This document shows positions 9,730 through 56,967 of a stretch of 64,000 nucleotides of DNA, piece by piece. The stretch covers positions 135,888-199,887 of the forward strand of contig NZ_LDUG01000025.1 of the NCBI RefSeq assembly GCF_001530125.1, read 5' to 3'. A program made the position numbers and the translations under genes. The DNA comes from Thiobacillus denitrificans. GTDB lineage: Bacteria > Pseudomonadota > Gammaproteobacteria > Burkholderiales > Thiobacillaceae. Position 1 is the first letter of the stretch, and each line of letters starts with the position of its first letter. The notes under the pieces are model-generated. The model saw only the letters and a program-made list of their open reading frames with translations, searched no databases and had not been told where the DNA came from.

Positions 9730-9945
9730 CGACCCACAAGAATCACGGCCTTCGACGCTTTGACGGTCGGCTATCTCGTGTTGAGCCGCCATTCAAAAAT
9801 TCGAGGCGGATGCCGGGTCATTGGCCTTATGTAAAGCTTTGCATAAGGCCGACGAGCCGAAGTTCGCGGAAAGTTAGCGAATGGCGGGTTAACCCCAGAT
9901 AACCGACTGCCATGACGTTGAAGGCTGGGCGGCTCTTGTGGGTCG
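9730..9945. repeat. 216-bp imperfect palindrome embedded in the IS30 remnant
   Basis: The two halves are inverted copies of about 108 bp meeting near 9836/9837. The outer arms are CGACCCACAAG and CTTGTGGGTCG. Next come matching blocks (GGTCGGCTATCTCGTGTTGA on the left, the complement of GGTTATCTGGGGTTAACC on the right, both running into CCGCCATTC). The centre at 9823-9850 is a 28-bp dyad built on GGCCTTATG, AAGCTTT and CATAAGGCC with one mismatched pair. Because of the symmetry both strands encode similar peptides. It replaces the IS30 coding sequence, so it is probably an inserted palindromic element or a rearranged end. Confidence 0.6.
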
Positions 9946-10136
9946 ATGCGAGACTGTGAGCGCGCATGGGCTTGTTTGGGACGATAGCCGCGCGCTCCCC
10001 GGTTGCGCGTCATCTCCCGGCTGATGGTCGATTTATGGCGCTCCATCAATCGGGCAATCTCGCTTTTGTCATGTCCCGCTTTGGCAAGGATGGCAATCTG
10101 ATACCGTTCGTCTTGGGTGAGGTGTGTGTATTTCAT
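9946..10136 (-). pseudogene. IS30-family transposase, N-terminal fragment
   Basis: The fragment starts MKYTHLTQDERYQIAILAKA and continues with KSEIARLMERHKSTISREMTRNRG, the helix-turn-helix that opens IS30-family transposases (DDE type, normally about 320-340 residues). Only about 64 codons remain before the sequence enters the 216-bp palindrome, so the DDE domain is missing and the gene is dead. The 65 bp between glcF and this start probably include the IS end. Transfer is implied by family; no second IS end is visible on the EamA side. Confidence 0.75.
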
Positions 10137-10201: not shown

Positions 10202-11473
10202 TTAATCAGAGTTGCACTTCGAATTTGAATCCGCGCCCGTTTTTTCCAGCGCATCGTCCAAAATTTCCACCCAGTGTCGCACAGGAATCCCGGTGCCCGA
10301 TTGCAGATGCGTGAGGCAACCAATGTTGGCGGTGACGATCACCTCCGGCGCCCCCGCCTGTAAATAGCCGAGCTTGCGCATCTTGAGCTGGTTGGCGATC
10401 TCGGGCTGCAGGATCGAATAGGTGCCGGCCGAGCCGCAGCACAGGTGTTTTTCCGCCACCGGAGTGAGCTCGAATCCGGCATCGGTCAGCAGCGCCTCGA
10501 CGCCGCCCGTGAGTTTCTGTCCGTGCTGCAGGGTGCAGGGCGGGTGGTAGGCGATGCGTTTAGGGGTGAGGGGTGAGGGGTTAGGGGTGAGAGATTTCAG
10601 CGCGGCCGCTTCGCAAACGAGGATTTCCGAAATGTCTTTCGTCGCGGCGGACACGCGCGCGGCTTTTTCCGCATAGGCGTCGTCATTGCGCAGCAGCCAG
10701 CCGTAGTCCTTCACCATCACGCCGCAGCCCGAGGCCGTCATCACGATGGCTTCCACGCCGGCGTCGAGCTGCGGCAGCCAGGCGTCGATGTTGCGGCGTG
10801 CGGCATCAAGGCCCGCATCGGTGTCGTTGAGGTGATGCGCAAGCGCGCCGCAGCAGCCGGCTTCGCTTGCCGTGACCAGCGAGATGCCGAGGCGGTCGAG
10901 CACGCGCGCGGTGGCGGCGTTGATGTTGGGTTTGAGGCCGGGCTGCACGCAGCCCTGCAGGACCAGCATGCGGCGGGCGTGGCGTGCGGCGGGCCAGATG
11001 CCTGCTGCTTCGGCGGCGGGGATGCGGGCCTTCAAAAAGCCCGGCATCAGACTGCGCACGCCCTGGCCGAGATTGAGCGCGCTGTTGAACAGCAGTTGCG
11101 TGCCGAGGCCGATTTTCAGCGCCGTGCGGGTCGCGGTCTCGCCCACGCTGCGGCCGACTTTTTCCTCGACGATGTGGCGGCCGATGTCGAGCAGCTTGCC
11201 GTATTCGACGCCCGATGGGCAGGTGGTCTCGCAGTTGCGGCAGGTCAGGCAGCGGTCGAGGTGAAGCTGGGTTTTCGCCGTCGGCGTTGCGCCTTCGAGC
11301 ACCTGTTTCATCAGATAGATGCGGCCGCGCGGCGAGTCGAGCTCGTTGCCGAGAATCTGGTAGGTGGGGCAGGTGGCCAGACAAAACCCGCAATGCACGC
11401 AGCTGCGCAGGATGCGTTCGGCTTCCTCGCCCTCGGGGGTGTTGCGGAAGGATTCGGCGAGCGTGGTCTGCAT
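10202..11473 (-). CDS. glcF: Glycolate oxidase iron-sulfur subunit
   Basis: This 423-residue subunit passes electrons from GlcDE to the quinone pool during oxidation of glycolate to glyoxylate. Two 4Fe-4S motifs are clear: CVHCGFCLATCPT (about residues 19-31) and CLTCRNCETTCPSGVEYGK (about residues 69-87). Two CCG-type domains follow (QGCVQPGLKPNINAAT, AGCCGALAHH, HPPCTLQHGQKL, CCGSAGTYSILQ). I start at MQTTLAESF; the upstream open frame has no homology. The last nine residues (DSNSKCNSD) look unlike the family end and may derive from the adjacent IS30 end. It begins one base after glcE ends. Confidence 0.93.
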   Translation of the reverse strand: MQTTLAESFRNTPEGEEAERILRSCVHCGFCLATCPTYQILGNELDSPRGRIYLMKQVLEGATPTAKTQLHLDRCLTCRNCETTCPSGVEYGKLLDIGRHIVEEKVGRSVGETATRTALKIGLGTQLLFNSALNLGQGVRSLMPGFLKARIPAAEAAGIWPAARHARRMLVLQGCVQPGLKPNINAATARVLDRLGISLVTASEAGCCGALAHHLNDTDAGLDAARRNIDAWLPQLDAGVEAIVMTASGCGVMVKDYGWLLRNDDAYAEKAARVSAATKDISEILVCEAAALKSLTPNPSPLTPKRIAYHPPCTLQHGQKLTGGVEALLTDAGFELTPVAEKHLCCGSAGTYSILQPEIANQLKMRKLGYLQAGAPEVIVTANIGCLTHLQSGTGIPVRHWVEILDDALEKTGADSNSKCNSD

Positions 11474-11474
11474 G

Positions 11475-12521
11475 TCAGAAGTCCGAATACAGGCGGCCGC
11501 GGTTGAAAATGCCCCTGGGGTCGAAGCGCTGCTTGAGGTTGCGATGCACGCCCAACAGGGCCGGGGCGAGCGGGGCGAAGACGCCGTCGGCCGGCGCGGC
11601 GCCGCGGAACAGGGTGGCGTGGCCCCCCGCACTCTTGGCAGCTTCGCGCAAGTTGGCTGCGGGCCGGTTGCTTGCCAGCCAGCGCACGGCGCCGCCCCAT
11701 TCGATCCATTGCGCGTCGCCCAGGTTCAGTGGCGGCGTGGTCGGCTTGACCGCCAGACGCCATATCGGGCGCTTGTCGAAAAAAGGTGTCGCCTGGTCGC
11801 GCAGGCGCTGCCAGAAGGCAGCGGCATCCTTCAATGCCTCGCCGCCGAGTTTGGCCTGCGCGACCTGCACCGCGGACGCCGCGCCCGACAGCCGCAGCGT
11901 CAGCAGGCCGGCGTGCCATGAAGTCGCCGACAGCGGCAGCGGCTGTCCGGCCCACTGGTTCATTTTCAGGATGGCGGTGGCTTCATCCAGTTCGAATTGC
12001 AGCGTGGATTCCGCAGCCGGTTTCGGCAGCACCTTGAGCGAGACTTCGGTGATGAGGCCAAGCGTGCCGAGCGCGCCGACCATCAGCCGCGACACATCGT
12101 AGCCGGCGACATTCTTGATCACCTGGCCGCCGAAGCGCAGCGGCTGCCCGGTACCGTCGACCATCCGCACACCGAGCACGAAGTCGCGCGCGGCGCCGGC
12201 GTAGGGTCGGCGCGGGCCGGACAGGCCGGCGGCAATGCAGCCGCCCAGCGTGGCCGGGCCGCCGAAGTGCGGCGGCTCGAACGCCAGCATCTGATTCTGT
12301 TCGGCGAGCAGTCCCTCGATTTCGGCCAGCGGGGTGCCGGCACGTGCGGTCAGCACCAGCTCCTTGGGCTGGTAGTCGACGATGCCGGCAAGCGCGCGTG
12401 TGCTGAGGACTTCACCTTCATCGGCGTTGCCGTAGAAGGTCTTGCTGCCGCCGCCCTGGATGATGAGCGGCGTATTGCTTTCATGGGCGGCGCGGATGCG
12501 CTCGATCAAGGTGTCCAGCAT
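11475..12521 (-). CDS. glcE: Glycolate oxidase FAD-binding subunit GlcE
   Basis: This 348-residue protein is the second, shorter flavin-type subunit of glycolate oxidase. It has the FAD_binding_4 layout: LIIQGGGSKTFYGN near residue 19, PPHFGGPATLGGCIAAGLSGPRR around residue 85 and an NVAGYDVSRLMVGALGTLG segment near residue 130. The C-terminus ends DPRGIFNRGRLYSDF, as in GlcE and GlcD proteins. ATG 12521 overlaps the glcD stop by one base, so the two are coupled. Its partner subunits lie immediately on either side. Confidence 0.92.
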   Translation of the reverse strand: MLDTLIERIRAAHESNTPLIIQGGGSKTFYGNADEGEVLSTRALAGIVDYQPKELVLTARAGTPLAEIEGLLAEQNQMLAFEPPHFGGPATLGGCIAAGLSGPRRPYAGAARDFVLGVRMVDGTGQPLRFGGQVIKNVAGYDVSRLMVGALGTLGLITEVSLKVLPKPAAESTLQFELDEATAILKMNQWAGQPLPLSATSWHAGLLTLRLSGAASAVQVAQAKLGGEALKDAAAFWQRLRDQATPFFDKRPIWRLAVKPTTPPLNLGDAQWIEWGGAVRWLASNRPAANLREAAKSAGGHATLFRGAAPADGVFAPLAPALLGVHRNLKQRFDPRGIFNRGRLYSDF

Positions 12522-13975
12522 CAGAACCTCGGCAGCTCGGGGTGCGTTAGCTGGCCGCCGTGGACGTGCATCGCGCCCCACTCGGCGCAGCGGTGCAGTT
12601 CGGGAACAGCCTTGCCGGGGTTGAGCAGCTTGTCAGGGTCGAATGCGGCCTTCACGTCGTGGAAACGGCTCAGTTCCGGCGTGGCGAACTGCGCGCACAT
12701 CTGGTTGATCTTTTCCAGCCCGACGCCGTGCTCGCCGGTGATGGTGCCGCCGACCTCGACGCACAGCTCGAGAATCTTGCCGCCGAAGGCTTCGGCCTTG
12801 GCGAGTTCGCCGGGCTGGTTGGCGTCGAACAGGATCAGCGGGTGCAGATTGCCGTCGCCGGCGTGGAACACGTTGGCTACCGCCAGGCCGTATTCGGCGC
12901 TCATCTCGCTGATGCGTTTCAACACGTGCGGCAAAGCGCCGCGCGGAATGGTGCCGTCCATGCAGTAATAGTCGGGCGCGAGCCGGCCGACCGCGGGGAA
13001 GGCGGCCTTGCGCCCGGCCCAGAACTTGAGGCGCTGCGCCTCGCTCTCGGCGGTGCGGATCTCGATCGCGCCAGAGGCTTCGAGCACTTTCCGCACGGTG
13101 TAGATGTCGGCCGAGACTTCCTCGTTGACGCCGTCAACCTCGCACAAGAGCAGGGCCTCGCAGTCGAGCGGGTAGCCAGCGTGGACGAAGGCCTCGGCGG
13201 CCTGGATGGCGAGGCGGTCCATCATCTCGAGACCTGCAGGGATGACGCCAGCGGCGATGATGTTGCCGACTGCGGCACCCGCTTTCGCCACATCGTCGAA
13301 CGCGGCCAGCACCACCTGCGCGCGTTCGGGGCGCGGCAGCAGCTTGACCGTGACTTCGGTGATCACCGCCAGCATGCCTTCCGAGCCGGTCAAGAGCGCG
13401 AGCAGATCGTAGCCGGGCGCGTCGAGCGACTCGTTGCCGATTTCCAGCAATTGGCCGTCGATGGTCCACGCGCGCAGCTTCATGATGTTGTGCACGGTGA
13501 GGCCGTATTTGAGGCAGTGCACGCCGCCGGAGTTTTCCGCCACGTTGCCGCCGATCGAGCAGGCGATCTGCGACGACGGATCGGGCGCGTAATAAAGATT
13601 GTGCCCCGCGACGGCTTCGGAAATCGCCAGGTTGCGCACGCCGGGCTCGATCACGGCGGTGCGCGTCAGCGGGTCGATGGCCTTGATGCGGTTGAGCTTG
13701 GCCAGCACCAGCAACACCGCACCGTCGACGGGTATGGCGCCCGCCGACAGGCCGGTGCCGGCGCCGCGTGCCACCACTGCGACCTTCTCCGCGTGGCACA
13801 GCTTCAGGATCGCCGCCACCTGCGCCTCATTCTCCGGCAGTGCTACCACGTCAGGGGTGTTGCGGTACACCGCCAGGCCGTCGGACTCGAATGGCAGCAG
13901 GTCTTCGCGCTCGTTGAGCACGCAGTGCGCCGGCAACAGGCGGCGCAGTTTGGATAGGAAGGCGGGACTGAGCAT
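12521..13975 (-). CDS. glcD: Glycolate oxidase FAD subunit GlcD
   Basis: This 484-residue FAD-linked oxidase is the catalytic subunit converting glycolate (and possibly lactate-like 2-hydroxy acids) to the 2-oxo acid. Visible features are the PP-loop ARGAGTGLSAGAIPVDGAVL (about residues 69-88), DPSSQIACSIGGNVAENSGG (about residues 132-151) and the C-terminal HAGDGNLHPLILFD and TGEHGVGLEK motifs with the conserved His residues. The end, DPDKLLNPGKAVPE, is typical. It lies 17 bp downstream of the DUF1537 kinase and is cotranscribed with glcE and glcF. Confidence 0.94.
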   Translation of the reverse strand: MLSPAFLSKLRRLLPAHCVLNEREDLLPFESDGLAVYRNTPDVVALPENEAQVAAILKLCHAEKVAVVARGAGTGLSAGAIPVDGAVLLVLAKLNRIKAIDPLTRTAVIEPGVRNLAISEAVAGHNLYYAPDPSSQIACSIGGNVAENSGGVHCLKYGLTVHNIMKLRAWTIDGQLLEIGNESLDAPGYDLLALLTGSEGMLAVITEVTVKLLPRPERAQVVLAAFDDVAKAGAAVGNIIAAGVIPAGLEMMDRLAIQAAEAFVHAGYPLDCEALLLCEVDGVNEEVSADIYTVRKVLEASGAIEIRTAESEAQRLKFWAGRKAAFPAVGRLAPDYYCMDGTIPRGALPHVLKRISEMSAEYGLAVANVFHAGDGNLHPLILFDANQPGELAKAEAFGGKILELCVEVGGTITGEHGVGLEKINQMCAQFATPELSRFHDVKAAFDPDKLLNPGKAVPELHRCAEWGAMHVHGGQLTHPELPRF

Positions 13976-13992: not shown

Positions 13993-15327
13993 TCAGGCCG
14001 CCAGTTTAGCCGGGCTCGCCTGCGCGTGCGAGGGCGCGAGACGCCGGTAGGCTTCCGCCAGTGCACCGTCGCCGCCGACGTTGCCGGGAAAAATCACGAC
14101 GGGAATCTGCGGCAGGCGGTGGGCGGTCGGCGTCTGCACCACGGTCACGCCGGGGAGGATCTGCCCCAGCACGCGCGAGGTCGCCAGTTCCAGCCCGGTC
14201 GACAGCACGTCGTTGGAGGTGATGCCGCCCTTGCTGATGAGGAAGCCCAGGGTTTCCGGCAGCCGATGCACCACGTCCATCAGCGTGGCGGACACGGACT
14301 CGCCGAAGGCCAGCCGCTCGGCCACGCTGACGAACTGCCGCTCGGCGCGGCTGGTGAACACCACCGGCGTGAGGCCGCGTGCGTGGGCGTGGGCGATGCT
14401 CGCTGTCAGTTCGTCGACCAGCGCGGCGCGCGCGTCAGGCAGACGGGCGACGTCGAGCGGCAGGCCGACCACGCCGCGTTCCTTCAGCAGCGCGGTGAGC
14501 TGGGCCGTGGTCTTGGCGACGTGCGAGCCGACGATGATCGCGCCGGGCTGGCCGTCGCGCACCAAAGTGGCGAAGGATTCGGCAGCTACCGGCTGCGGCG
14601 GCAGCTTGGCGAGTGCGGTGAGCAGCGAGGCCGCGCTGCGGAACAGCAGGTGGCGGCCAGAGGCGGCGGCTTTCAGGACTGCGTCGGCGAAGATGCGGTA
14701 GTCGTCTGCGGATTCGCCGTCGACCACGCCGATTGCGTTGTTCTCGAACGATGCGAGCCAGGAATCGGCCTGGCCTTTGCGAAGGTCCGTGAGGGTGAGC
14801 CGCGCCACGTCAGCGGCCTCGACGCGGCCGGCGGTCTTCTCGGCGACGTAGTCGGGCAGATACGCGGTGCGGTAGCCGAACACCGAGTCGCGCGCGAACT
14901 CGGTCTCGTGGGTCGGCACCGGCTTGCCGTCGATGATCAGGTAGTGCGTGCTGTCGCGCGTGATGCGCCCGCCCTCGAAGAAGCCGGGGGTCAGGATGGT
15001 CGCGTCGAAAGAACCGAGCACGGCGTTCATCACGTCGGTCTCGACCGGGTAGTGGCCGCGCAGCGTTGAATCCGAGCGCGATACGAACAGCACCGGCCCT
15101 TTGTAATCGACGAGCGCGAGCTTGAGGTTTTCGCATACCTCTCGCGTGACGTCGGCGGCGCGCGCCGCGTCCATCCCGCGCGTGTTGGTGAGGATGAAGA
15201 ACAACGGCGCGGCGTCGGCCAGCGCCGTCTTCAACGTGGCGACATCCCAGCGCGTCAGGAGCAGACAGGAATGCACCGTCTGCGATCCGGTGGGGTCGTC
15301 GTCGAGAACGATGATTTTCGGGGTCAT
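13993..15327 (-). CDS. Four-carbon acid sugar kinase family protein (DUF1537)
   Basis: This 444-residue protein has both domains of the DUF1537/OtnK family. The N-terminal sugar-acid domain opens with IIVLDDDPTGSQTVHSCLLL and contains VSRSDSTLRGHYPVE. The C-terminal nucleotide domain contains IIVGSHVAKTTAQL and a glycine-rich SKGGITSNDVLSTGL. Characterised members phosphorylate D-erythronate, L- or D-threonate, or 3-oxo-tetronates. None of the usual partners (an OtnI isomerase, an OtnC aldolase or a PdxA2-like dehydrogenase) is adjacent; glcDEF lies 17 bp downstream instead. A role in feeding C2 acids to GlcDEF, or as a glycerate-type kinase, is inference only. Confidence 0.85.
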   Translation of the reverse strand: MTPKIIVLDDDPTGSQTVHSCLLLTRWDVATLKTALADAAPLFFILTNTRGMDAARAADVTREVCENLKLALVDYKGPVLFVSRSDSTLRGHYPVETDVMNAVLGSFDATILTPGFFEGGRITRDSTHYLIIDGKPVPTHETEFARDSVFGYRTAYLPDYVAEKTAGRVEAADVARLTLTDLRKGQADSWLASFENNAIGVVDGESADDYRIFADAVLKAAASGRHLLFRSAASLLTALAKLPPQPVAAESFATLVRDGQPGAIIVGSHVAKTTAQLTALLKERGVVGLPLDVARLPDARAALVDELTASIAHAHARGLTPVVFTSRAERQFVSVAERLAFGESVSATLMDVVHRLPETLGFLISKGGITSNDVLSTGLELATSRVLGQILPGVTVVQTPTAHRLPQIPVVIFPGNVGGDGALAEAYRRLAPSHAQASPAKLAA

Positions 15328-15343
15328 GATCTAAACCTTTTTT

Positions 15344-15548
15344 GTCCGCGAAGGACGCGAAGGGGCGCGAAGAAGACCTGAGTAAACACTGATACGTCTG
15401 TCATTGCGAGGAGCGAAGCGACGCGGCAATCCAGAAAGCCTCGCCGAATCAAGCAGTGGATTGCTTCGCTGCGCTCGCAATGACAAATTACAGACTTATT
15501 CAGCGTCCTCCGGGTTTTCCTTCGCGTTTCTTCGCGCCCTTAGCGGAT
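15344..15548. repeat. Nested inverted repeats between the ThDP enzyme and kinase genes
   Basis: The outer arms (15344-15376 and 15519-15548) are built from GCGAAG-type units: CCGCGAAGGACGCGAAGG on the left and CCTTCGCG, TTCTTCGCGCCC on the right. Inside lies a second hairpin with arms 15400-15433 (GTCATTGCGAGGAGCGAAGC) and 15457-15484 (GATTGCTTCGCTGCGCTC, then GCAATGAC). The inner type is a widespread bacterial intergenic hairpin. Together they fill the 229-bp spacer within the presumed operon and could affect read-through from the upstream gene into the kinase. Confidence 0.7.
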
Positions 15549-15556
15549 ACGTTTTT

Positions 15557-17782
15557 TTAAGCCGCCACCTGTTCCAGCATCGCCAGCGCGCGCTCGTGCA
15601 TCGCCTGCGCGTTCATGCCGTTGAAGTCGAACAACTGCTGCGGGTTGGCGGTGGTTTCGCCGCGCTTCCAGCAGAACACGTCGCGCTGCGCGGCCTGACT
15701 GCGCAGCAGCACCGGCTCCAGCGGTGCCGACGGGCCGCCGGTGACGCCGATCAGCACGTCACCATGAAACATCGCCTTGAATGCAGCGTCGTCCATGAAG
15801 CGGCCGTCGGGTTCCGACACGCTGTCCCACAGCACGTCGCTCGGACGGTACAGGCGGCGCGGGTTGACCACGGCGACGATGCGCGAGCCGATGCCGGCTT
15901 CGGCCAGCTTCTCGGCGGCGGCAAACACCGGCTGCAGCACCAGGTCGCCGGTCACCGCGAACACCACGCTGTGGGAACCCGGGTGTTCCTTGAGCACAAT
16001 GGCGCCGTCGTCGATCGCCTGATAGCTCTGCGCCATCGTGGCATGGATCGGCAGCGGCGTCTTCGAGGCGGTGATGACGATACCCTTGTTGCGCTGCTTC
16101 AGGGCCCAGTCGTAGCTCGCCTGGATCATGTTGGCATCGACCGGGAATAGCGGGTAGACGTTGCCGTTGCGCATCATCGCGGCGAAGTAGCTTTCGATTT
16201 CCGGGCGCTGGTGGGTCCAGCCGTTGCGGCCCTGCTCCAGCGCGCCGGCGGTGAACAGGCACACCGTTGCAGGCGTCGGGCGGCGCAGTTCGGCCATCGC
16301 CTGCGTCACCGTCTGCCAGATCGGCAGGCCGTTGATGGCGAAGGATTCGTAGCTGCACCACAGGCTGCGGCCGCCGAACAGCGCGACGCCCACCGCGAGG
16401 CCGGCGCAGGAGTCTTCGTTGAGCGGCTCGTAGACCTGACCAGAAGGCCCCTGGAAATACAGGTCGTCGGCAGTCGGATGGCGGATGGTCAACGCCTTGT
16501 TGATGTTGGCCATGCCCGACGCTTCGTTGCCGTCGGCGTTGGTGACGACGAAGTCCGGGTCGCGCTTACCCACTTCGCCGACGACGTTGCCGAAGGCGGT
16601 GGTGGGCACGTGGTTTTCGCCGACGGCGAATTCGGTCAGCGGCAGCCCTTCGAGGCTGGGCAGATCGCGCACGCTTTCGGTCACCGCCACGCGTGCGGCC
16701 GGGCCGCCGCCGGCGTGGCGGAAGTTCTCGCGGGTGATTTCCCACGCCTTGATCGGCAATGCGCGGCGCTGCAGCCCGCCCTTCACGTCGTCGGAGTCGA
16801 GCGTGTGGTGCGCGTAGAGGTTGTGCGACTTGGCGCCGGTGGCGTGTACGCCCGCGCCTTTCAATTGCTTGACAATGAGGCAGGCGCGGCGACCGGACAG
16901 CGCGCTTTTCGCGGCGGTATCGGCCGCCTTCAGAATCGCGCCGGTGAAGGCCATGCGCGCGGCGAAGCCGAAGGTCGTGCTGTCCGTGTACACCGGCGCG
17001 TCGGGCGTGTCGGCGTATTCGCGGGCGTCGATCAGGTGTATGTCGTCGAAGCCGTACGCGCGCCAGTAGTCGGTCATGCGCGTGTTGTCCCACAGCGACA
17101 CCATGCTGTGGTGCTCCTGCGAATAGCCGTTCCACACCAGCACCGGCAGGTAGTTGGTGATGTCCGGATAGGCGGTCGCGAAATGCTGGAACGCGCTCAT
17201 GATGTAGGGCTCGCCGAGGCCGCCGTCGCCGATGGTGACGGGGAACAGCTTGTCGCGATTCAGGTAGGCGCCGGCCATGGCGAAATGCTGGCCCTGGCCC
17301 AAGGGGCCGGCAGGCGCCAGCAGGCCGGGAATCGCGCCCGACAGATGGCCGAGCAGGCCGTGGCGCTCGCGAAAGCGCGCCCGCATGTCGGAAACCGTGT
17401 AGATGCCCATGTCTTCGAGCGAGGTGTCGAGGAACATCGCCGAATAGAAGCCGGGCGCGTGGTGGCCGACCTCGGTCACCATGTTGCGGTGGCCCAGCAG
17501 GTGCAGCGCGGCGACCGCGTCGGCGCTGGAGGCGAAGCCACCCGGGTGGCCGGACGACTTGCTGCCGGTGACCTGCAGGGTCAGGTAGCGCAGCGCATCG
17601 GCGGCCAGCAGCGTCTGGTAGATGGCCTGCTCACTGGTCGCGTCCGGCAGCGCGGGCTGGTTCGGCCCCAGCAGCGGCGCTGCGCCCAGGCGGTCGATTT
17701 CCGGAAAGCTGTCGGCGAAATACTGAATGCCCTCGCAAAAGGTGGGGACAGTCTCGGGCGGGGACTGCAGCACTGCGCTCAT
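15557..17782 (-). CDS. Phosphoketolase/transketolase-superfamily ThDP enzyme
   Basis: This 741-residue thiamine-diphosphate enzyme has the two-domain order of transketolases and phosphoketolases. The N-terminal ThDP domain includes SKSSGHPGGFASSADAV, GHHAPGFYS and the cofactor motif IGDGGLGEPYI through WNGY (about residues 183-215). The PYR domain contains YEPLNEDSCAGLAVGVALFGG. The segment ending NGWTHQRPEIESYFAAM, VDANMIQASYDWALKQRNKG and ITASKTPLP resembles the NGFSHQ, PPDANTLL and AGKQPLP regions of phosphoketolases, whereas SSGHPGG is transketolase-like. Substrate is therefore unclear. I start at MSAVLQ (GGAA upstream); an earlier in-frame ATG at 17815 lies inside the operator region. 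Confidence 0.75.
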   Translation of the reverse strand: MSAVLQSPPETVPTFCEGIQYFADSFPEIDRLGAAPLLGPNQPALPDATSEQAIYQTLLAADALRYLTLQVTGSKSSGHPGGFASSADAVAALHLLGHRNMVTEVGHHAPGFYSAMFLDTSLEDMGIYTVSDMRARFRERHGLLGHLSGAIPGLLAPAGPLGQGQHFAMAGAYLNRDKLFPVTIGDGGLGEPYIMSAFQHFATAYPDITNYLPVLVWNGYSQEHHSMVSLWDNTRMTDYWRAYGFDDIHLIDAREYADTPDAPVYTDSTTFGFAARMAFTGAILKAADTAAKSALSGRRACLIVKQLKGAGVHATGAKSHNLYAHHTLDSDDVKGGLQRRALPIKAWEITRENFRHAGGGPAARVAVTESVRDLPSLEGLPLTEFAVGENHVPTTAFGNVVGEVGKRDPDFVVTNADGNEASGMANINKALTIRHPTADDLYFQGPSGQVYEPLNEDSCAGLAVGVALFGGRSLWCSYESFAINGLPIWQTVTQAMAELRRPTPATVCLFTAGALEQGRNGWTHQRPEIESYFAAMMRNGNVYPLFPVDANMIQASYDWALKQRNKGIVITASKTPLPIHATMAQSYQAIDDGAIVLKEHPGSHSVVFAVTGDLVLQPVFAAAEKLAEAGIGSRIVAVVNPRRLYRPSDVLWDSVSEPDGRFMDDAAFKAMFHGDVLIGVTGGPSAPLEPVLLRSQAAQRDVFCWKRGETTANPQQLFDFNGMNAQAMHERALAMLEQVAA

Positions 17783-17791
17783 GGCAATTCC

Positions 17792-17896
17792 TTTCACAAT
17801 ATGAAAATGTTTCACATGATGTGAAACGATGGATGTATTGAAGCAGAAATTTCCCGCTTTTTCACATTGCGTGATAAATTTTCACCTTATGAAAAA
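17792..17896. promoter_or_regulatory. Cluster of TTTCA/TGAAA palindromes, probable IclR-family operators
   Basis: The 106-bp gap between the two divergent starts holds four related dyads. A perfect one, TTTCACATGATGTGAAA, lies at 17810-17826. TTTCA-CAATA-TGAAA lies at 17792-17806. A degenerate TTTCACATTGCGTGATA lies at 17860-17876. TTTTCA-CCTTA-TGAAAA at 17879-17895 overlaps the iclR start codon. IclR proteins bind AT-rich palindromes of this kind, usually between their own gene and the target. The arrangement predicts autoregulation plus control of the leftward ThDP-kinase-glcDEF operon. Confidence 0.7.
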
Positions 17897-18653
17897 TACA
17901 ATCTCATCCATCCAGGTGCTCGACCGCGCCATGGCGCTGGTCGGCGTTCTCTCCCGCGCGCCCGGCCCGGTCAGCCTGACCCGGCTGGCCAATGATGCCG
18001 GTCTGCATACCGCCAGCGCGCACCGCATTCTCGGCGCATTGATGGCGCACGGCCTGATCGAGAAAAGCGGCGCCGGCGAATACGACCTCGGCGTGCGCTG
18101 GCTGGAAGTCGGCAACCGCCTGCGCGCGCGGCTGAACATCCGTCAGGTTGCAATGCCGGCCATGCAGCAACTGGCCGAGCTGACCGGCGAGACGGTCAAC
18201 CTGATCGTGCGGCGCGGCGACGAAGCCGTCTACGTCGAGCGCGTGACCGGCGGGCAGACGATGATCCAGGTGGTGCAGGTGGTCGGCGCGCACGCGCCGC
18301 TACATGTCACCGCGGTCGGCAAGGTATTTCTCGCCGAGGACAGTGCCAGCGGGGTGATGGGCTACGCCGAGCGCACCGGCCTGCCCGCCTACACTGCGAA
18401 CACCCTGACCACGCTGGAAAAGCTGCGCGCCGAGCTTGAAGTGATCCGGCGCGAGCAGCTGGCCTACGACCGCGAGGAAGCCGAGCTGGGGGTGGCGTGC
18501 ATCGGCGCACCGATCCGCGACGCCGAGGGCAAGCTGGTCGCCGGGCTGTCGATCTCGGCGCCGGCCGACCGCCACAAGCCGGGCTGGGCCGAGGCGCTGA
18601 AAACAACGGCCGCCCAGACCGGCGCTGCGCTCGGGTATCTGGCCGATGTCTGA
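17889..18653 (+). CDS. IclR-family transcriptional regulator
   Basis: This 254-residue regulator has an N-terminal winged helix (about residues 5-65: SIQVLDRAMALVGVLSRAPG, LARLANDAGL-like recognition region, HTASAHRILGALMAHGLIEK) and a C-terminal ligand-binding domain (APLHVTAVGKVFLAED, YDREEAELGVACIGAPIRD, VAGLSISAP). I chose ATG 17889 because family proteins begin just before SIQVLDRA; ATG 17829 would add 20 unrelated residues. No Shine-Dalgarno is visible and an operator overlaps the start. Effector candidates from context are glyoxylate, glycolate or a sugar acid. Confidence 0.88.
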   Translation: MKNTISSIQVLDRAMALVGVLSRAPGPVSLTRLANDAGLHTASAHRILGALMAHGLIEKSGAGEYDLGVRWLEVGNRLRARLNIRQVAMPAMQQLAELTGETVNLIVRRGDEAVYVERVTGGQTMIQVVQVVGAHAPLHVTAVGKVFLAEDSASGVMGYAERTGLPAYTANTLTTLEKLRAELEVIRREQLAYDREEAELGVACIGAPIRDAEGKLVAGLSISAPADRHKPGWAEALKTTAAQTGAALGYLADV

Positions 18654-42065: not shown

Positions 42066-42419
42066 TTAGTGTCTGGCTTCGGCGATGAGCGCTTCCAGCA
42101 GATCGATCAGCGTTTGTCCCGGCGTATCGCTCGTGGGCAAATGTCGCACTGCAATCTCACGTGCCTCGCACGCGGCCGTATCGACTACCGCCGGGCCGGT
42201 GACGATGATGCGGATGAGCTTGTGCAACTGGCCGATTGCATCGGCATTGATCGGTGTGGCATGAGTGATGACGGTGGTAGACCAGAACAGCCGCGGCACG
42301 ATGTCGGCTGCGTCCGAATCGGGATACTCGCTCCAGTTGTGGTCGAAGTTCGGGATCGGCAGGTCGTCTGCGGTAAAGGCGGCACAATCAAGAAAAGCGA
42401 TGCGCTCCTTCACGCTCAT
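42066..42419 (-). CDS. Truncated D-2-hydroxyacid dehydrogenase-like protein (catalytic-domain half only)
   Basis: This 117-residue protein begins MSVKERIAFLDCAAFTADDL and continues WSTTVITHATPINADAIGQL, aligning by eye with the N-terminal part of HprA-type dehydrogenases such as the protein at 52159-53109 (KIVFLDRKSLI, SVIISNKVKLPGEML). The Rossmann domain and the catalytic Arg, Glu and His are absent; after HLPTSDTPG it jumps to a helix like the C-terminal end. It is a remnant after internal deletion, or a repurposed small protein. The start overlaps glxR by 4 bp, so it is still translated. Confidence 0.55.
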   Translation of the reverse strand: MSVKERIAFLDCAAFTADDLPIPNFDHNWSEYPDSDAADIVPRLFWSTTVITHATPINADAIGQLHKLIRIIVTGPAVVDTAACEAREIAVRHLPTSDTPGQTLIDLLEALIAEARH

Positions 42420-43294
42420 TTCCCTTCGCCCACCAGCCGCTCCAGCGCGCGCATGATCGCCGACGAATCGAGTTCGCTGTCGCCCGCGCCCATCAGCGCG
42501 TTCATCTGCTGCGCGATCAGCGCGGCGCCGGGCAATGGTGTGGCGGTTTCCTGCGCGTTGTCCATGACGATGGCCATGTCCTTGTGGTGCAGTTTGACCT
42601 TGAAGCCGGGCTTGTAGTTGGCGTCGAGCATGCGCTGGCCGTGGACTTCGAGGATGCGGCTGCCGGCGAAGCCGCCCAGCAGCGCTTCGCGCATCTTGAC
42701 CGGGTCGACGCCGTTGCGCCGTGCCAGCAGGATCGCCTCGGCGACGCCCTCGAAGGTGAGGCCGACGACAATCTGGTTGCAGCATTTGACGACCTGGCCG
42801 GCGCCGTGGCCGCCGACGTGGACGATGTTCTTGCCGAGGATTTCGAACAGCGGACGGATCTTTTCGAAAATCGGCGCTTCGCCGCCGACCATGATTGACA
42901 GCGTGCTTTCGCGGGCGCCGGTCTCGCCGCCCGACACCGGCGCATCGAGCATGTGAACGCCGCGTTCGGCCAGCGCGGCGGCAATGCGGCGGGTGGCGGC
43001 GGGCGACACGGTGCTCATGTCGACGATGGTGTGGCCGGGGCGGGCGCCGTGCACCAGGCCGCGGTCACCAAGGATGATCTGCTCGACGTCGGTGGTGTCG
43101 GAGACGACGGTGAAGGTGATGTCGGACTCGGCGGCGACCTCGGTGGGCGTGCCCTTGCCGAGCGCGCCGGCGACCAGCATCGGTTCGAGGCGGTCGAAGC
43201 GGCGGCCGTAGACGAACAGCTGATGCCCGGCGCGCAGCAGGTTTTCCGCCATGGGGCGGCCCATGATGCCGCTGCCGATGAATCCGATTTTCAT
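42416..43294 (-). CDS. glxR: 2-hydroxy-3-oxopropionate (tartronate semialdehyde) reductase, copy 1
   Basis: This 292-residue enzyme of the beta-hydroxyacid dehydrogenase family starts with the NAD(P) loop GFIGSGIMGRPMA (residues 4-16). It has substrate motif DAPVSGGETGA (about 117-127), catalytic Lys170 in GAGQVVKCCNQIV with Asn173, and GGFAGSRILEVHG. It would reduce tartronate semialdehyde to glycerate. Copy 2 at 53228-54106 is a clear paralogue of the same length. The start overlaps the AEC transporter stop, and its stop overlaps the truncated dehydrogenase start, giving a tightly coupled trio. Confidence 0.88.
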   Translation of the reverse strand: MKIGFIGSGIMGRPMAENLLRAGHQLFVYGRRFDRLEPMLVAGALGKGTPTEVAAESDITFTVVSDTTDVEQIILGDRGLVHGARPGHTIVDMSTVSPAATRRIAAALAERGVHMLDAPVSGGETGARESTLSIMVGGEAPIFEKIRPLFEILGKNIVHVGGHGAGQVVKCCNQIVVGLTFEGVAEAILLARRNGVDPVKMREALLGGFAGSRILEVHGQRMLDANYKPGFKVKLHHKDMAIVMDNAQETATPLPGAALIAQQMNALMGAGDSELDSSAIMRALERLVGEGK

Positions 43295-44277
43295 GATGCG
43301 ATCCCTTTTACGACGACAAGCCAGAATGGCAGCGTAACCAATCCCACCAGCGTTGACCAGCCCATGATGAGCCCCGCCAGGCGGGTGTCCAGTCCGAAGC
43401 GATCGGCCAGCGCGATGACCATCACCATGGTCGGCATGGCGGCTTCCAGCACGCCGGCTTCGCCGGGTTCGGTGAGCTTGCCGGGCCACGCCAGCGCAAT
43501 GCCCAGCGCCAGGAGTGGCATCAGCGCGAGCTTGATGCCCAGCGCGACGAAAACGGCTTTTTGCGGGCGCAGGTCGTGCCACGGGATGGTCAGGCCCAGC
43601 ACGAACAGCATCAGCGGAATGGTCGGGCTGCCGGCCCAGCGCGCGGCCTCGATCAAGGGGTCGAGCGCCGCGCCGGAGAGGTTGACCGCGATGCCCGCGG
43701 CGAAGCCCCACACCGGCGGCAGTTTCAGCCACATCGACAGGAACGAGGCGTGCTCGGCGTGCTTGCCGCAGCGGAAGGCGATCCACACGCCGAGCGACCA
43801 CACCAGCGGGGTGGTGGCGAGCATGTCGGCGAAGAAGGGATAGCGCGCGCCGGATTCACCGTACACCGTGGTGAGGAAGGGATAGCCAAAGAACAGCACG
43901 TTGCCGAAGCCGGACGCCAGCATGATGGCGCCGCGCTGTGGCCGCGACAGGCCGCGTCCGAGCGGGGTGGCGAACAGCGCCAGCGCGGCCAGCGCCAGGC
44001 CGAACAGGGTGGCGGCACCGAGAATCAGCGGCACCTGCAGGATGGCGAGGTCAACTGTGGCGGATGCGCCTGCCGCGAAGAACAGCATCGGCGCAAAAAA
44101 ATTCAGCACCAGCCGGTTGATTTCGCCGCGCAGGCCGACGACGGAAATACCGCTTTGCCAACGCGGCCAGATGGCGCCTGCGGCGATCAGCAGGGACAGG
44201 GGCAACAGCGTCTTAAGCAGCAGTTGCTGGGCGAGCTCGGCAGACATGAGGCGGGATGCAAACAGACGGGCGCTCAT
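43291..44277 (-). CDS. AEC (auxin efflux carrier) family transporter
   Basis: This 328-residue transporter has about ten membrane helices. Helix text includes LLIAAGAIWPRW, NRLVLNFFAPMLFFAAGASA, IMLASGFGNVLFFGYPFLTT and MPTMVMVIALADRFGLD, typical of the AEC family. Relatives carry malate, malonate or other acids, so cotranscription with glxR suggests an organic-acid cargo. Start choice is uncertain: MSARLF at 44277, or MSAELA at 44247; the longer frame to 44394 runs into pbpG and is rejected. Confidence 0.8.
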   Translation of the reverse strand: MSARLFASRLMSAELAQQLLLKTLLPLSLLIAAGAIWPRWQSGISVVGLRGEINRLVLNFFAPMLFFAAGASATVDLAILQVPLILGAATLFGLALAALALFATPLGRGLSRPQRGAIMLASGFGNVLFFGYPFLTTVYGESGARYPFFADMLATTPLVWSLGVWIAFRCGKHAEHASFLSMWLKLPPVWGFAAGIAVNLSGAALDPLIEAARWAGSPTIPLMLFVLGLTIPWHDLRPQKAVFVALGIKLALMPLLALGIALAWPGKLTEPGEAGVLEAAMPTMVMVIALADRFGLDTRLAGLIMGWSTLVGLVTLPFWLVVVKGIAS

Positions 44278-44330
44278 CATAACGCCGCCGCAGGACAGCT
44301 GGCGCGAGAAGCGCGCCAGCTGGTGAAGGA

Positions 44331-45296
44331 TCAGGTGCGCGAGGCGGGGGTGCGGCGTTTGTCGGTGCGAAGCGGTGCGGCGGATTCCAGCCACTCCTTG
44401 ATGCGGGTGGCGTCACTGGCACGATTGCCTGTGCCCCGCGCATCGAGCAGCACGATGATGACATCGCGGTTGGCGACCTGCGCCTGCATGATGAGGCAAT
44501 GGCCGGCCTCGTTGATGAAGCCAGTCTTGGACAGGCCGATATGCCAGTCTTCCGCGCGGGTGAAGCGATTGGTGTTGTTGAATGCCACGGTGCGGTAGTG
44601 CACCTGGGGTTTTTGCTGCTTTTTCTGGGTCACCACGCGCTGCGAGTCGAGGGTGTAATTGCCGGCGGTGCTGATGAGGCGGATTTCGGGGTAATTTTGA
44701 TAAGCGTAATTGACGAGTTTGGCGAGGTCGTGCGCGGTCGAACGGTTGCCGCTCGACAGCCCGGTCGGCTCGACATAGACCGTGTCGTTCATGCCCAGCA
44801 CGCGCGCCGTGCGGTTCATGGTGGCGACGAAGCGCTGCAGGCCGCCCGGGTAGTTGCGCCCGAGCGCGTTCGCCGCGCGGTTGTCGGACGCAATCAGCGC
44901 TAGATGCAGCAGCTGGCCGCGCGTGTAACGGGAGCCGAAGGCCAGGCGCGAACCGGTGCCCTTGAGGGTGTCGCGGTCTTCTTCGGTGATGGTGATGTGT
45001 TCATCCATAGGCTGCCCGGCGTTGAGCACCAGTATCGCCGTCATCAGCTTGGTGATCGAGGCGATCGGCGTCTGCAAGCTGGCGTTTTTTGCCAGCAGCG
45101 GTTGCCCACTGGCCTGGTCGAACACCAGCACAGAATGCGCGCTAAATTCCGGCATCGGCGCAACGTCGGGCGCCGATTGCGGGGCGGATAGTGTCGTGTC
45201 GAGCTGATCGCTCCACTGCAGGGACGTGCGGCCATCGAGCGCGGCGGCGCCGGTGTGAACGCACAACAATAACAATCCGGACAGTACAGCTTTCAT
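44331..45296 (-). CDS. pbpG: D-alanyl-D-alanine endopeptidase (PBP7 type)
   Basis: This 321-residue periplasmic enzyme has a signal peptide (MKAVLSGLLLLCVHTGAAAL) and the serine-peptidase triad: SITK at residues 80-83, SDN at 137-139 and KTG at 257-259. It cleaves D-Ala-mDAP cross-links in peptidoglycan. The lack of a C-terminal amphipathic anchor fits PBP7 rather than DacA/C. ATG 45296 is selected because it gives the signal peptide. It is divergent from the histidine kinase gene. Confidence 0.9.
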   Translation of the reverse strand: MKAVLSGLLLLCVHTGAAALDGRTSLQWSDQLDTTLSAPQSAPDVAPMPEFSAHSVLVFDQASGQPLLAKNASLQTPIASITKLMTAILVLNAGQPMDEHITITEEDRDTLKGTGSRLAFGSRYTRGQLLHLALIASDNRAANALGRNYPGGLQRFVATMNRTARVLGMNDTVYVEPTGLSSGNRSTAHDLAKLVNYAYQNYPEIRLISTAGNYTLDSQRVVTQKKQQKPQVHYRTVAFNNTNRFTRAEDWHIGLSKTGFINEAGHCLIMQAQVANRDVIIVLLDARGTGNRASDATRIKEWLESAAPLRTDKRRTPASRT

Positions 45297-49720: not shown

Positions 49721-51898
49721 TCAGTCGCCGCGCAGTGCGGCCTTGAACTGCCGCCGCCGCCGGTGCAGGGTCGGCTCGGTGTAGCCGTTCGGCGCGCGCC
49801 GCCCATGGAAAATCATGTCCTGCGCGGCCTGAAAGGCCAGGCTGATGTAGTGCGGCGCCATGTTGACGTATTGAGGGTCGCCGGCATTTTGCTGGTCCAC
49901 AAGGCGCGCCATGCGCCTGAGCGCTCCCATTACCTGAGTTTCGCTGATCACGCCGTGATGCAGCCAGTTGGCGATGTGCTGACTGGCGATGCGTAGCGTC
50001 GCCCGGTCTTCCATCAGGCCGACGTTGTCGAGGTCCGGCACCTTGGACGCCCCCATGCCCTGGTCGATCCAGCGCACGACATAGCCGAGCAGTCCCTGGA
50101 TGTTGTTGTCCAGTTCCTGCTGGATGTCCTCGGCTGACCAGGCTGGCTTCGTAACCACGGGGATGGCCAGCAGGTCGTCGAGCGCGGCCTGTGGCCGTTC
50201 GCGCAGGGCCTGCTGGCGGGCGAAGACGTCGACCCGGTGATAGTGGATGGCGTGCAGGGTGGCGGCGGTGGGCGACGGCACCCAGGCGCAGCTGGCGCCG
50301 GCCTCGGGGTGCGTTTGCTTGCTCGCCATCATCGCTGCCATGCGGTCGGGCATGGTCCACATGCCCTTGCCAATCTGCGCACGCCCCGCGAGGCCGCAGG
50401 TCAGCCCGATGTCGACGTTCCAGTTCTCGTAGGCTCTGAGCCAGGCGGCGGATTTCATCTCGCCCTTGCGCAGCACCGGGCCGGCCTCCATCGAGGTGTG
50501 GATCTCGTCGCCGGTGCGATCGAGGAAGCCGGTGTTGATGAAGATCAGCCGCTCGCGCGCCGCTCGGATGCATTCCTTGAGGTTGAGCGTGGTGCGGCGC
50601 TCCTCGTCCATGACGCCAAGCTTTAGCGTGTTCTTCGGCAGGTTCAGCACGTCTTCGATGCGCGCGAACAAATCCACGGTGAAAGCGACTTCATCCGGAC
50701 CGTGCTGCTTGGGTTTGACGATGTAGACGCTGCCTGCGCGGCTGTTGCGCAGGGGGCTGGTGCCCTTGAGGTCGTGCAGTGCGCAGGTGCTGACAATCAG
50801 GCCGTCGAGCAGACCTTCGAACACCTCGTTGCCCGCCTCGTCCAGCACCGCGTCGGTGGTCATCAGGTGGCCGACGGTGCGCACCAGCATCAGGCTGCGG
50901 CCGGGAATCTCGAAGTCGCGGCCCTCGGGCGAGCGGTAGCGGCGGTCCGGGTTGAGGCTGCGGGTGAGCGTCTTGCCGCCCTTGTCGAAGCTGCTGGCGA
51001 GCTCGCCCTTCATCAGGCCCAGCCAGTTGCGATAGACATTCACCTTGTCACCGGCATCCACCGCGGCCACCGAATCTTCGCAATCCATGATGGTGGTGAT
51101 CGCCGCTTCCAGAAAAATGTCGCGGATACCGGTGGGATGCAGTTCGTGGATGGGGTGATCGGTGTTGAAATGAATCTCGAAGTACAGGCCGTGGTGCGCC
51201 AGCAGCAGCGAACTGATTGCCCCGGATTTCTCCTGATATCCCTTGAATTGCCCGGGGTCGCGCAGTCCGGTATGTGCCCCGCTCGACAGCGTCACCGCGA
51301 GTTGACCCGCCTTGACCGTATAGGCGATGGCATCGATGTAGCTGCCCTCGCGCAAGGGCGTGGCCTCGTCGAGGAAGGCCTTGGCGTAGGTGATGACCTT
51401 GGAACCCCGCACCGGATTGAACGCGCCCTTCTGCTCGGCGCCGCCATCATAGGGAATAACGTCGGTGCCGTAGAGGGCGTCGAACAGGCTGCCCCAGCGC
51501 GCATTGGCGGCATTCAGCGCGTAGCGGGCGTTGTTCACCGGCACCACCAGCTGCGGGCCGGCGATGCGGGCGATTTCGGCGTCGACATTTTCGGTGCCGA
51601 TGACAAAATCTTCGCCCTCCGGCAGCAGGTAGCCGATGTCGACCAGGTGCTGCTTGTAGGCGGCGGCGTCGTGCGGCTGGCCCCGGCGCTCAAGGTGCCA
51701 GGCATCGATGCGCGCCTGCAGTTCGTCGCGGCGCGTCAGCAGGGCGCGGTTGCGCGGGGTCAGCTCGCGCAGCATGTCGGCGAAACCCTGCCACACATGG
51801 TCGCTGGATATGCCGGTGCCCGGCGCGATCTCGTCGCGCACCAGATCGAAAAGGGGTTTTGCAATCTGCAGGCCGGCTACCGTGATGCGTGCGCTCAT
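49721..51898 (-). CDS. glcB: Malate synthase G
   Basis: This 725-residue enzyme condenses glyoxylate with acetyl-CoA to malate. The family block [20 protein letters not shown], the catalytic-site regions [33 protein letters not shown] and [13 protein letters not shown], and the C-terminal domain ([41 protein letters not shown]) are all present. It is monomeric type G (about 720 residues). It is the last gene of the leftward dctP-glcB set. The upstream hprA stop is 260 bp away, and nearly all of that spacer is the MITE; without it the genes would be about 21 bp apart. Confidence 0.95.
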
Positions 51899-53227: not shown

Positions 53228-54106
53228 CTACCGCTCCATGCCGGACTCGCGCTCGACGATCCTCATCACCGCCGCCGAATCCAGTTCCGCACCGCCGGTG
53301 CCCATCAGCGCATTGAGATGCTGCATCACCAGCGCCGCACCCGGCAGCGACAGCCCGAGCTCCTTCGCGGTCTGCATCACGATGTTGATGTCCTTCTGGT
53401 GCAGCTTCGTCTTGAAGCCGGGCGTGTAGTCGTTGTCCAGCATGCGCTTGCCGTGCACTTCGAGGATGCGGCTGCCGGCAAAGCCGCCCATGAGCGCGTC
53501 GCGCACCTTGGCCGGATCGACGCCGTTCTTGCGGGCGAAGGTGAGCGCCTCGGCCACGGCCTCGATGGTCACTGCCACCACGATCTGGTTGCAGGCCTTG
53601 GCCACCTGGCCGGCGCCGTAGTCGCCCACGTGCACGGTGTTCTTGCCCATGGCCTCGAACACCGGCTTCACGCGCTCGAACACCTCGGGCTTGCCGCCCA
53701 CCATGATGGAGAGCGTGGCGTTGATCGCCCCCACCTCGCCGCCGGATACGGGCGCATCCAGCATGTCGATTCCGCGCGCGCGCAGCTGCGCGGCCATGTG
53801 GCGCGTGGCAGTGGGCGAGATGGTGCTCATGTCGACCACCACCGAGCCGGACTTGGCACCATGAATCACGCCGTTGTCGCCGAAGATGACCTCTTCGACG
53901 TCGGGCGTGTCGGACACCATGACGATAATGATGTCGGCCTGCGCTGCCGCTTCCGCGATCGACGCACATCCGGCGCAGCCAGCTTCCAAAGGCGGGGTCA
54001 TGGTTTCCGGCCGGCGGCCGTGCACGAATACCGTGTGCCCCGCCTTGTGCAGATTGACGGCCATGGGCTTGCCCATGATGCCCATACCGATGAATGCAAT
54101 GTTCAT
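53228..54106 (-). CDS. glxR: 2-hydroxy-3-oxopropionate reductase, copy 2
   Basis: This 292-residue paralogue of 42416-43294 has NAD(P) loop AFIGMGIMGKPMA, DAPVSGGEVGAINATLS, catalytic Lys170 and Asn173 in GAGQVAKACNQIV, and GGFAGSRILEVHGKRML. It is presumed to reduce tartronate semialdehyde to glycerate. It sits in an operon with TRAP genes upstream and hprA, glcB downstream, so it is the more convincing working copy in glyoxylate metabolism. Confidence 0.88.
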   Translation of the reverse strand: MNIAFIGMGIMGKPMAVNLHKAGHTVFVHGRRPETMTPPLEAGCAGCASIAEAAAQADIIIVMVSDTPDVEEVIFGDNGVIHGAKSGSVVVDMSTISPTATRHMAAQLRARGIDMLDAPVSGGEVGAINATLSIMVGGKPEVFERVKPVFEAMGKNTVHVGDYGAGQVAKACNQIVVAVTIEAVAEALTFARKNGVDPAKVRDALMGGFAGSRILEVHGKRMLDNDYTPGFKTKLHQKDINIVMQTAKELGLSLPGAALVMQHLNALMGTGGAELDSAAVMRIVERESGMER

Positions 54107-54167
54107 CGCTTCCCTCCGCTGAATGCAACTCAAAGCCGTCGCAGGACACCGCCTGCCCGGCGCCCGC

Positions 54168-56893: not shown

Positions 56894-56919
56894 GACGAAC
56901 CCTTGCTAAGACACAAAAA

Positions 56920-56947
56920 TGGCCGTCCGGTTCGCACCGGACGGCCA
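56920..56947 (-). terminator. Intra-operon hairpin between dctP and dctQ
   Basis: TGGCCGTCCGG (56920-56930) and CCGGACGGCCA (56937-56947) form a perfect 11-bp stem with a 6-nt loop. On the minus strand TTTTT follows (complement of 56915-56919). It lies after the dctP stop and before dctQ. Partial termination or mRNA stabilisation would make more binding protein than permease, as commonly seen in such operons. Confidence 0.8.
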
Positions 56948-56967
56948 CGGACCAAGCCAGGTTGCGT

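Follow-up and report, generated by a model that had tools for sequence, protein, structure and literature searches.

A conserved ThDP enzyme and DUF1537 kinase gene pair next to glcDEF in Thiobacillus denitrificans: a candidate route of glyoxylate salvage

We have analysed a stretch of 64,000 nucleotides from Thiobacillus denitrificans (NCBI RefSeq assembly GCF_001530125.1, contig NZ_LDUG01000025.1, positions 135,888 to 199,887 of the forward strand), which we will call the window. It contains a gene for a divergent thiamine diphosphate (ThDP) enzyme, followed by the gene of a DUF1537 kinase and by the glycolate dehydrogenase genes glcD, glcE and glcF. The ThDP enzyme and the kinase are a strong candidate for an undescribed route of phosphoglycolate/glyoxylate salvage.

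The gene set and its regulator

As read from gene order, the ThDP, DUF1537, GlcD, GlcE and GlcF genes form a single leftward set, which faces an iclR gene (Table 1). The original prediction had described this arrangement with a palindromic spacer between the two sides; we have found the same open reading frames (ORFs) and confirmed the palindromes. GlcE and GlcF pass the NCBIfam equivalog cut-offs, with scores of 533.7 against 284 and 667.9 against 333. GlcD has its Pfam domains and stays under both NCBIfam cut-offs that it matches (813.3 against 897 and 544.3 against 567.9). The kinase contains the Pfam domains SBD_N (178.6 bits) and NBD_C (124.4 bits); with the D-threonate kinase model NF047819 it reaches 67.1, the cut-off being 450. 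E. coli YgbK does not match it by BLASTP at E≤1e-3. A short ORF with an HTH_38 domain (9771-10136, minus strand) adjoins the end of glcF and is probably a truncated transposase.

Table 1. Coordinates of the gene set, its spacers and other glyoxylate-related genes in the window
Feature	Position	Strand	Basis or remark
ThDP enzyme, divergent XFP/transketolase type, ~741 aa	15557..17782	-	ORF open to 17815; start from conserved start context
DUF1537 acid-sugar kinase (SBD_N + NBD_C)	13993..15327	-	ORF and Pfam domains
GlcD, glycolate dehydrogenase FAD subunit	12521..13975	-	ORF and domains
GlcE	11475..12521	-	ORF open to 12581; likely start overlaps GlcD stop
GlcF, iron-sulfur subunit	10202..11473	-	ORF open to 11632; model match from residue 54
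IclR-family regulator	17889..18653	+	ORF open from 17829; start from conserved start context
ThDP/DUF1537 spacer, 229 bp, with palindromic repeat	15328..15556	.	
Inner arms of nested repeat	15399-15410 / 15474-15485		
Outer arms of nested repeat	15345-15372 / 15520-15547		
Putative divergent promoter/operator region	17783..17888	.	three TTTCAC...GTGAAA-type palindromes
Palindrome	17810-17826		perfect
Palindrome	17860-17876		
Palindrome	17880-17896		overlaps iclR start
Tartronate semialdehyde reductase (TSR), possible accessory	42416..43291	-	TIGR01505 357.5 bits, cut-off 340.75
Mem_trans (AEC-type) permease adjoining TSR	43291..44394	-	
Malate synthase G (GlcB)	49721..51898	-	alternative glyoxylate outlet
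Second TSR, adjoining TRAP transporter	53228..54133	-	
TRAP transporter, DctM	54168-56417		
TRAP transporter, DctP	56968-58119		

The starts of the ThDP and IclR genes (17782 and 17889) were inferred from the start context conserved across relatives, which gives a spacer of about 106 bp. The palindrome TTTCACATNATGTGAAA, with up to three mismatches, has four sites in the window and 0.16 expected; three of them lie at 17810-17896. Most of the 19 further Thiobacillus-type spacers in the alignment show them as well; two (L050 and L051) deviate. The IclR protein has the Pfam domain IclR_C (151 bits) and its best NCBIfam match is BhcR (NF045644), with 170.9 bits and under the cut-off of 350. BhcR senses glyoxylate. 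The regulator of the window would control the divergent promoter and would probably respond to glyoxylate or glycolate. A different repeat, with nested arms, is found between the ThDP and DUF1537 genes; its inner part occurs only once in the window at ≤3 mismatches. The gap between these two genes is zero in three relatives (L033, L046 and L054), as against 229 bp here.

Family placement of the ThDP enzyme

The original prediction saw in this protein a divergent enzyme with mixed phosphoketolase and transketolase motifs, which was borne out: SSGHPGG, NGWTHQRPE and VDANMIQASYDW are all present, and the NCBIfam cut-offs of both families are missed. The Pfam profile XFP gives 43.4 bits, above its gathering score of 22, and Transket_pyr gives 35.3. 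Six NCBIfam phosphoketolase models match with 57–90 bits (best 89.5), their cut-offs being 777–1518; the best transketolase model gives 55.2 with a cut-off of 488. The protein has the fold and the ThDP-activating Glu of the transketolase/XFP-fold enzymes, and this Glu and the active-site His residues are invariant in the family alignment. The phosphate clamp of TktA is altered: Arg358/Ser385/His461/Arg520 correspond to T406/S433/A523/K585. The residues of XFP for the substrate phosphate are also replaced, Arg442 by Ile/Met435 and His548 by an invariant Arg530. The model of the enzyme has low confidence at residues 525–534 (pLDDT <50), i.e. around the clamp site.

In the phylogenetic placement, which had been suggested as a check, the family appears to group apart, beside XFP (88/79), in a tree with weak support for this position, long branches and two very long outgroup rows. 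The outcome which would have refuted the original prediction, a place inside the transketolases and no conserved neighbourhood, did not occur. The tree does not include the second XFP of the same genome (L176), whose extracted ORF was short. From family scores, residues, fold and tree taken together we reject an ordinary transketolase. Judged by its sequence, the protein fits neither transketolase nor phosphoketolase and appears nearest to the latter.

One alternative is that the enzyme is a second phosphoketolase which forms acetyl phosphate from xylulose-5-P or fructose-6-P, the kinase and glcDEF being its neighbours for other reasons. Papers on cyanobacteria list a second phosphoketolase ('PKET2'), the gene being sll0529 of Synechocystis or alr1850 of Nostoc; a passage of PMC7744508 models it as a phosphoketolase and states that the activity of sll0529 needs experimental verification. 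The gene has also been called transketolase (in a passage of PMC4915528) and phosphoketolase region (in one of PMC8147232). In the legend to Figure 4 of PMC7281370, on regulation by NdhR, which responds to 2-phosphoglycolate, sll0529 is a putative transketolase of unknown function. An xfp1/xfp2 double deletion grows photomixotrophically as fast as the wild type or slightly faster, according to a passage of PMC9034593.

The scores given above are far from the phosphoketolase cut-offs and both XFP residues, R442 and H548, are replaced. Alr1850 reportedly has no phosphoketolase activity. Furthermore a true XFP (PF03894) is already present in 14 of the 15 genomes with the ThDP gene that were searched, G485 being the exception. 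In the window's own genome the ThDP paralogue is accompanied by two true XFP genes, and in each of six genomes of Nostoc and its relatives a single true XFP and a single weak paralogue are found. We consider a second phosphoketolase highly improbable; by elimination and from the printed names, sll0529 and alr1850 are probably members of the ThDP family. One of the true phosphoketolases of the window's genome (L175, C12:60500-66500) shows a peculiarity: its longest ORF has an N-terminal extension which, by eye, resembles read-through of a palindromic element.

Conservation and co-occurrence

Relatives of the ThDP protein were taken from the best 80 of 573 candidates; other phyla may also carry the family. 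The closest among these 80 come from records titled Thiobacillus (89–94% identity); Sulfuriferula (73%), Thiogranum (64%) and many cyanobacteria (64–68%) are more distant. We compared two sets of loci, 32 proteobacterial and 20 from the order of the window (Burkholderiales), with some genomes common to both. For the name Gammaproteobacteria we follow the titles of the records; some naming schemes count the window's order under it, and Thiogranum (L099) is the only one with a finer name.

In the neighbourhood search suggested in the original prediction, 31 of the 32 proteobacterial loci have a DUF1537 gene after the ThDP gene and in the same orientation (the remaining one, L049, is cut off), and so have all 20 loci of the order. 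The three genes glcD, glcE and glcF are all within 9 kb in 26 of the 32 loci (3 untestable, 3 without) and in 17 of the 20 (1 untestable, 2 without). A divergent iclR is present in 26 and 13 loci, respectively. A chance neighbourhood is ruled out by the co-occurrence and by the conserved gene order. Three loci titled Gammaproteobacteria (L060, L063 and L068) have a conserved protein of 219–239 aa between glcE and glcF, by eye similar to glutathione S-transferase.

Most cyanobacteria have these genes at separate places. Among 68 ThDP loci the DUF1537 gene is adjacent in one (L070) and not adjacent in 64; three are untestable. It is found within a few kb of the ThDP gene in L153 and L154, and L073 has the order glcE-glcF-ThDP. 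Three cyanobacteria of 2.3–2.7 Mb without a ThDP gene at E≤1e-100 (L158, L159 and L174) have their DUF1537 gene flanked by a glcF-like and a glcE-like gene. These arrangements are separate links with glycolate and favour the salvage reading given below. The earlier claim of one operon with glcDEF holds, as linkage, in most proteobacterial loci; the 229-bp gap of the window is a correction to it.

At the level of whole genomes the ThDP gene is present, at E≤1e-60, in 35 of the 399 genomes of the order. Of these carriers 34 have RuBisCO, against 139 of the 364 genomes without the ThDP gene (Fisher p ~1e-12); neither this test nor any other co-occurrence test given here allows for shared ancestry, which counts against the salvage reading. 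RuBisCO was counted by PF00016, possibly together with RuBisCO-like proteins, which would weaken the association and not inflate it. The sole carrier without RuBisCO, G295, is a draft with 92% completeness. The DUF1537 query (E≤1e-10) was found in 11 of 11 genomes with the ThDP gene and in none of 69 without it, in a sample of the order that was hand-picked and not random (51 of the 69 with RuBisCO, 18 without). At E≤1e-20 it was found in all 36 genomes behind the best-hit loci, 11 proteobacterial and 25 cyanobacterial. The 244 Cyanobacteriota studied give a similar picture: 83 have ThDP (E≤1e-100), 112 have DUF1537 (E≤1e-20), 82 have both and 131 neither (Fisher p ~4e-38). The two genes are near-inseparable. 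DUF1537 genes retained in cyanobacterial genomes without ThDP at E≤1e-100 are found in L155-L164 and L174, with sizes of 1.6–5.0 Mb.

A proposed route from glycolate to triose phosphate

The linkage with glcDEF, the linkage with RuBisCO and the BhcR-like regulator make it very likely that the ThDP-DUF1537 pair works with GlcDEF in phosphoglycolate/glyoxylate salvage in Calvin-cycle autotrophs. Recycling of 2-phosphoglycolate in chemolithoautotrophs has received scarce attention, as a passage of PMC7486775 remarks. The gene set, its conservation and co-occurrence, the link with RuBisCO, the operator and the catalytic residues are observations; the source of the glycolate, the reactions after glyoxylate and the ligand of IclR are our proposal. 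In it, oxygenation by RuBisCO would supply 2-phosphoglycolate and from it glycolate, which GlcDEF would oxidise to glyoxylate. The ThDP enzyme would act as a glyoxylate ketolase and transfer a dihydroxyethyl (C2) unit from xylulose-5-P or fructose-6-P onto glyoxylate; the product would be 3-oxotetronate (2,4-dihydroxy-3-oxobutanoate). The DUF1537 kinase would phosphorylate its C4, and 3-oxotetronate-4-P would lose CO2, enzymatically or spontaneously, to give dihydroxyacetone phosphate (DHAP) for the Calvin cycle. The net reaction would be glyoxylate + xylulose-5-P + ATP → glyceraldehyde 3-phosphate + DHAP + CO2 + ADP. Such a phosphorylated intermediate can decarboxylate without an enzyme.

The chemistry has a precedent on the side of the kinase: a passage of PMC12540250 describes 3-OtnK, a DUF1537 enzyme which phosphorylates 3-oxotetronate, the product being decarboxylated to DHAP. 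Since a C2 transfer of the transketolase type to glyoxylate would give the substrate of 3-OtnK, the ThDP enzyme and the kinase would form one linear route. We propose this exact sequence, from C2 transfer to DHAP, tentatively, with confidence somewhat short of even. The whole picture, i.e. a salvage module with these two reactions under IclR control, is our best explanation, and we judge it nearly an even call. We are rather doubtful, though it is a real possibility, that a phosphoketolase-like glyoxylate condensation followed by a DUF1537 kinase is a natural photorespiratory route common to sulfur-oxidising chemolithoautotrophs and many cyanobacteria. The original prediction knew of no pathway of this composition, and among the papers listed from the open-licence PMC literature we have found none with a route made up of a ThDP enzyme, DUF1537 and glycolate.

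The direction of metabolism probably has to be reversed with respect to the original prediction, which led from a C4 or C5 sugar or sugar acid to C2 units. RuBisCO is present in nearly all carriers of the order, the pair recurs in cyanobacteria and no sugar-acid transporter or dehydrogenase is found in the set: therefore glycolate from RuBisCO oxygenation is probably the input and glyoxylate the substrate. The presence of GlcDEF, which would oxidise a glycolate product, and the known DUF1537 enzymes of acid-sugar catabolism would suit the catabolic direction. It does not agree with the absence of any OtnC- or OtnI-like gene from the 36 loci inspected, nor with the cyanobacteria, where no conserved neighbour of a catabolic type appears (neighbours were clustered only, without annotation). 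Catabolism of this kind is very unlikely.

Several observations weigh against the proposed salvage route. The phosphate clamp of the ThDP enzyme is only partly retained, with S433, K585 and the new invariant R530, so that a non-phosphorylated C2 donor is possible. Residues of XFP type, Y489, Q528 and N531, are retained, so that dehydration chemistry is also possible. The gene set has no 3-oxotetronate-4-P decarboxylase, and no genome-wide search for one was made. In 30 of the 112 cyanobacteria with DUF1537 there is no ThDP gene at E≤1e-100, thus the kinase also exists without its partner; 25 of these 30 genomes have 1.6–3.0 Mb. Malate synthase G in the window indicates another outlet for glyoxylate in this organism. 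Finally, a comparison of Calvin-cycle genomes outside cyanobacteria, in passages of PMC7895386, found phosphoketolase not to be enriched and photorespiration not to be specifically adapted; it was based on EC numbers and could therefore miss or misname the ThDP family.

The main alternative also starts from glyoxylate. In it the ThDP enzyme is a non-orthologous carboligase, which joins two glyoxylates to tartronate semialdehyde and CO2 in a glycerate pathway with replaced enzymes; TSR would then give glycerate, and DUF1537 or another kinase would phosphorylate glycerate or hydroxypyruvate. Glyoxylate carboligase (Gcl) over the cut-off is found in none of 44 genomes with the ThDP gene (34 from the order, 6 from cyanobacteria and 4 from records with the title Gammaproteobacteria or Thiogranum), a result which also favours the salvage route proposed above. 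In a set of 80 genomes it is found in two, both without the ThDP gene, and lower-scoring relatives of Gcl are found in all 80. TSR over the cut-off is present in 20 of those 34 ThDP genomes of the order, none of which has Gcl, and in 10 of 32 without ThDP: the ThDP enzyme might therefore make tartronate semialdehyde. TSR lies within 12 kb of the ThDP gene in 7 of 52 loci, and the window has it twice, points which also tell against the salvage chemistry proposed above. L181 and L182 have TSR, HPR-like (named by eye) and GarK-like genes directly upstream of the ThDP gene; TSR and HPR-like genes are found in L056 and L059, and farther off in L192, and TSR in L093 and L199. In L056 and L093 a pair similar to the TSR and permease of the window adjoins ThDP. 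A carboligase would also agree with the loss of the phosphate-clamp residues. In the window itself, the TSR, permease, GlcB and TRAP genes (42416-44394, 49721-51898 and 53228-58119) constitute a loose glyoxylate-metabolism region, 25–40 kb from the gene set.

Class I/II glycerate kinases are absent from 22 cyanobacteria with DUF1537 and no ThDP gene and present in only 3 of 12 with ThDP, which leaves room for DUF1537 as a glycerate kinase. However, class III homologues are reported, with data not shown, for most Synechococcus and Prochlorococcus marinus in a passage of PMC2063504. A class I or II enzyme is found in 25 of the 34 ThDP genomes of the order (13 and 12), and the GarK-like glycerate kinase of L181 and L182 makes DUF1537 redundant for this role in the same cluster. 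Six genomes with the ThDP gene (G079, G121, G196, G226, G344 and G370) have neither TSR (E≤1e-50) nor a class I/II glycerate kinase. The role of DUF1537 as a glycerate kinase is thus weakened. The near-constant partner of the ThDP enzyme is DUF1537 and not TSR. On the whole we find a carboligase unlikely.

If the salvage route from glyoxylate to triose phosphate is correct, two enzymes and no ammonia would be sufficient for it, and nature would have a salvage pathway that is new to us. Engineered photorespiratory bypasses would gain a candidate component from it, and it would provide a function for the misnamed second phosphoketolase, 'PKET2' (sll0529/alr1850), of cyanobacteria.

The system can be compared with several known ones. 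With TktA the ThDP enzyme shares Ser385, those active-site His positions that were compared, and the motifs SGHPG, GH and GPLGQG. It differs from the XFP phosphoketolases by having these transketolase-like segments and by lacking the XFP C-terminal tail. The kinase differs from OtnK and the D-threonate kinases in its surroundings, where OtnC- and OtnI-like genes are absent: around the ThDP genes of the 36 loci inspected (16 + 20), E. coli queries for OtnC, Hyi and Gcl gave no neighbour at E≤1e-12, and TSR, HPR-like and GarK-like genes were present in a minority. The beta-hydroxyaspartate cycle is similar in its glyoxylate input and in an IclR-type regulator closest to BhcR, but here the gene set has no Bhc-type enzyme and the regulator is under the BhcR cut-off. 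A further comparison is with the glycerate pathway (Gcl-Hyi-TSR-glycerate kinase) and the malate cycle of Cupriavidus necator, as described in a passage of PMC7486775: the entry through GlcDEF, the branch point at glyoxylate and the presumed salvage of phosphoglycolate are alike. Instead of a Gcl over the cut-off, the set studied here has a DUF1537 kinase and a ThDP enzyme which belongs to a different fold family.

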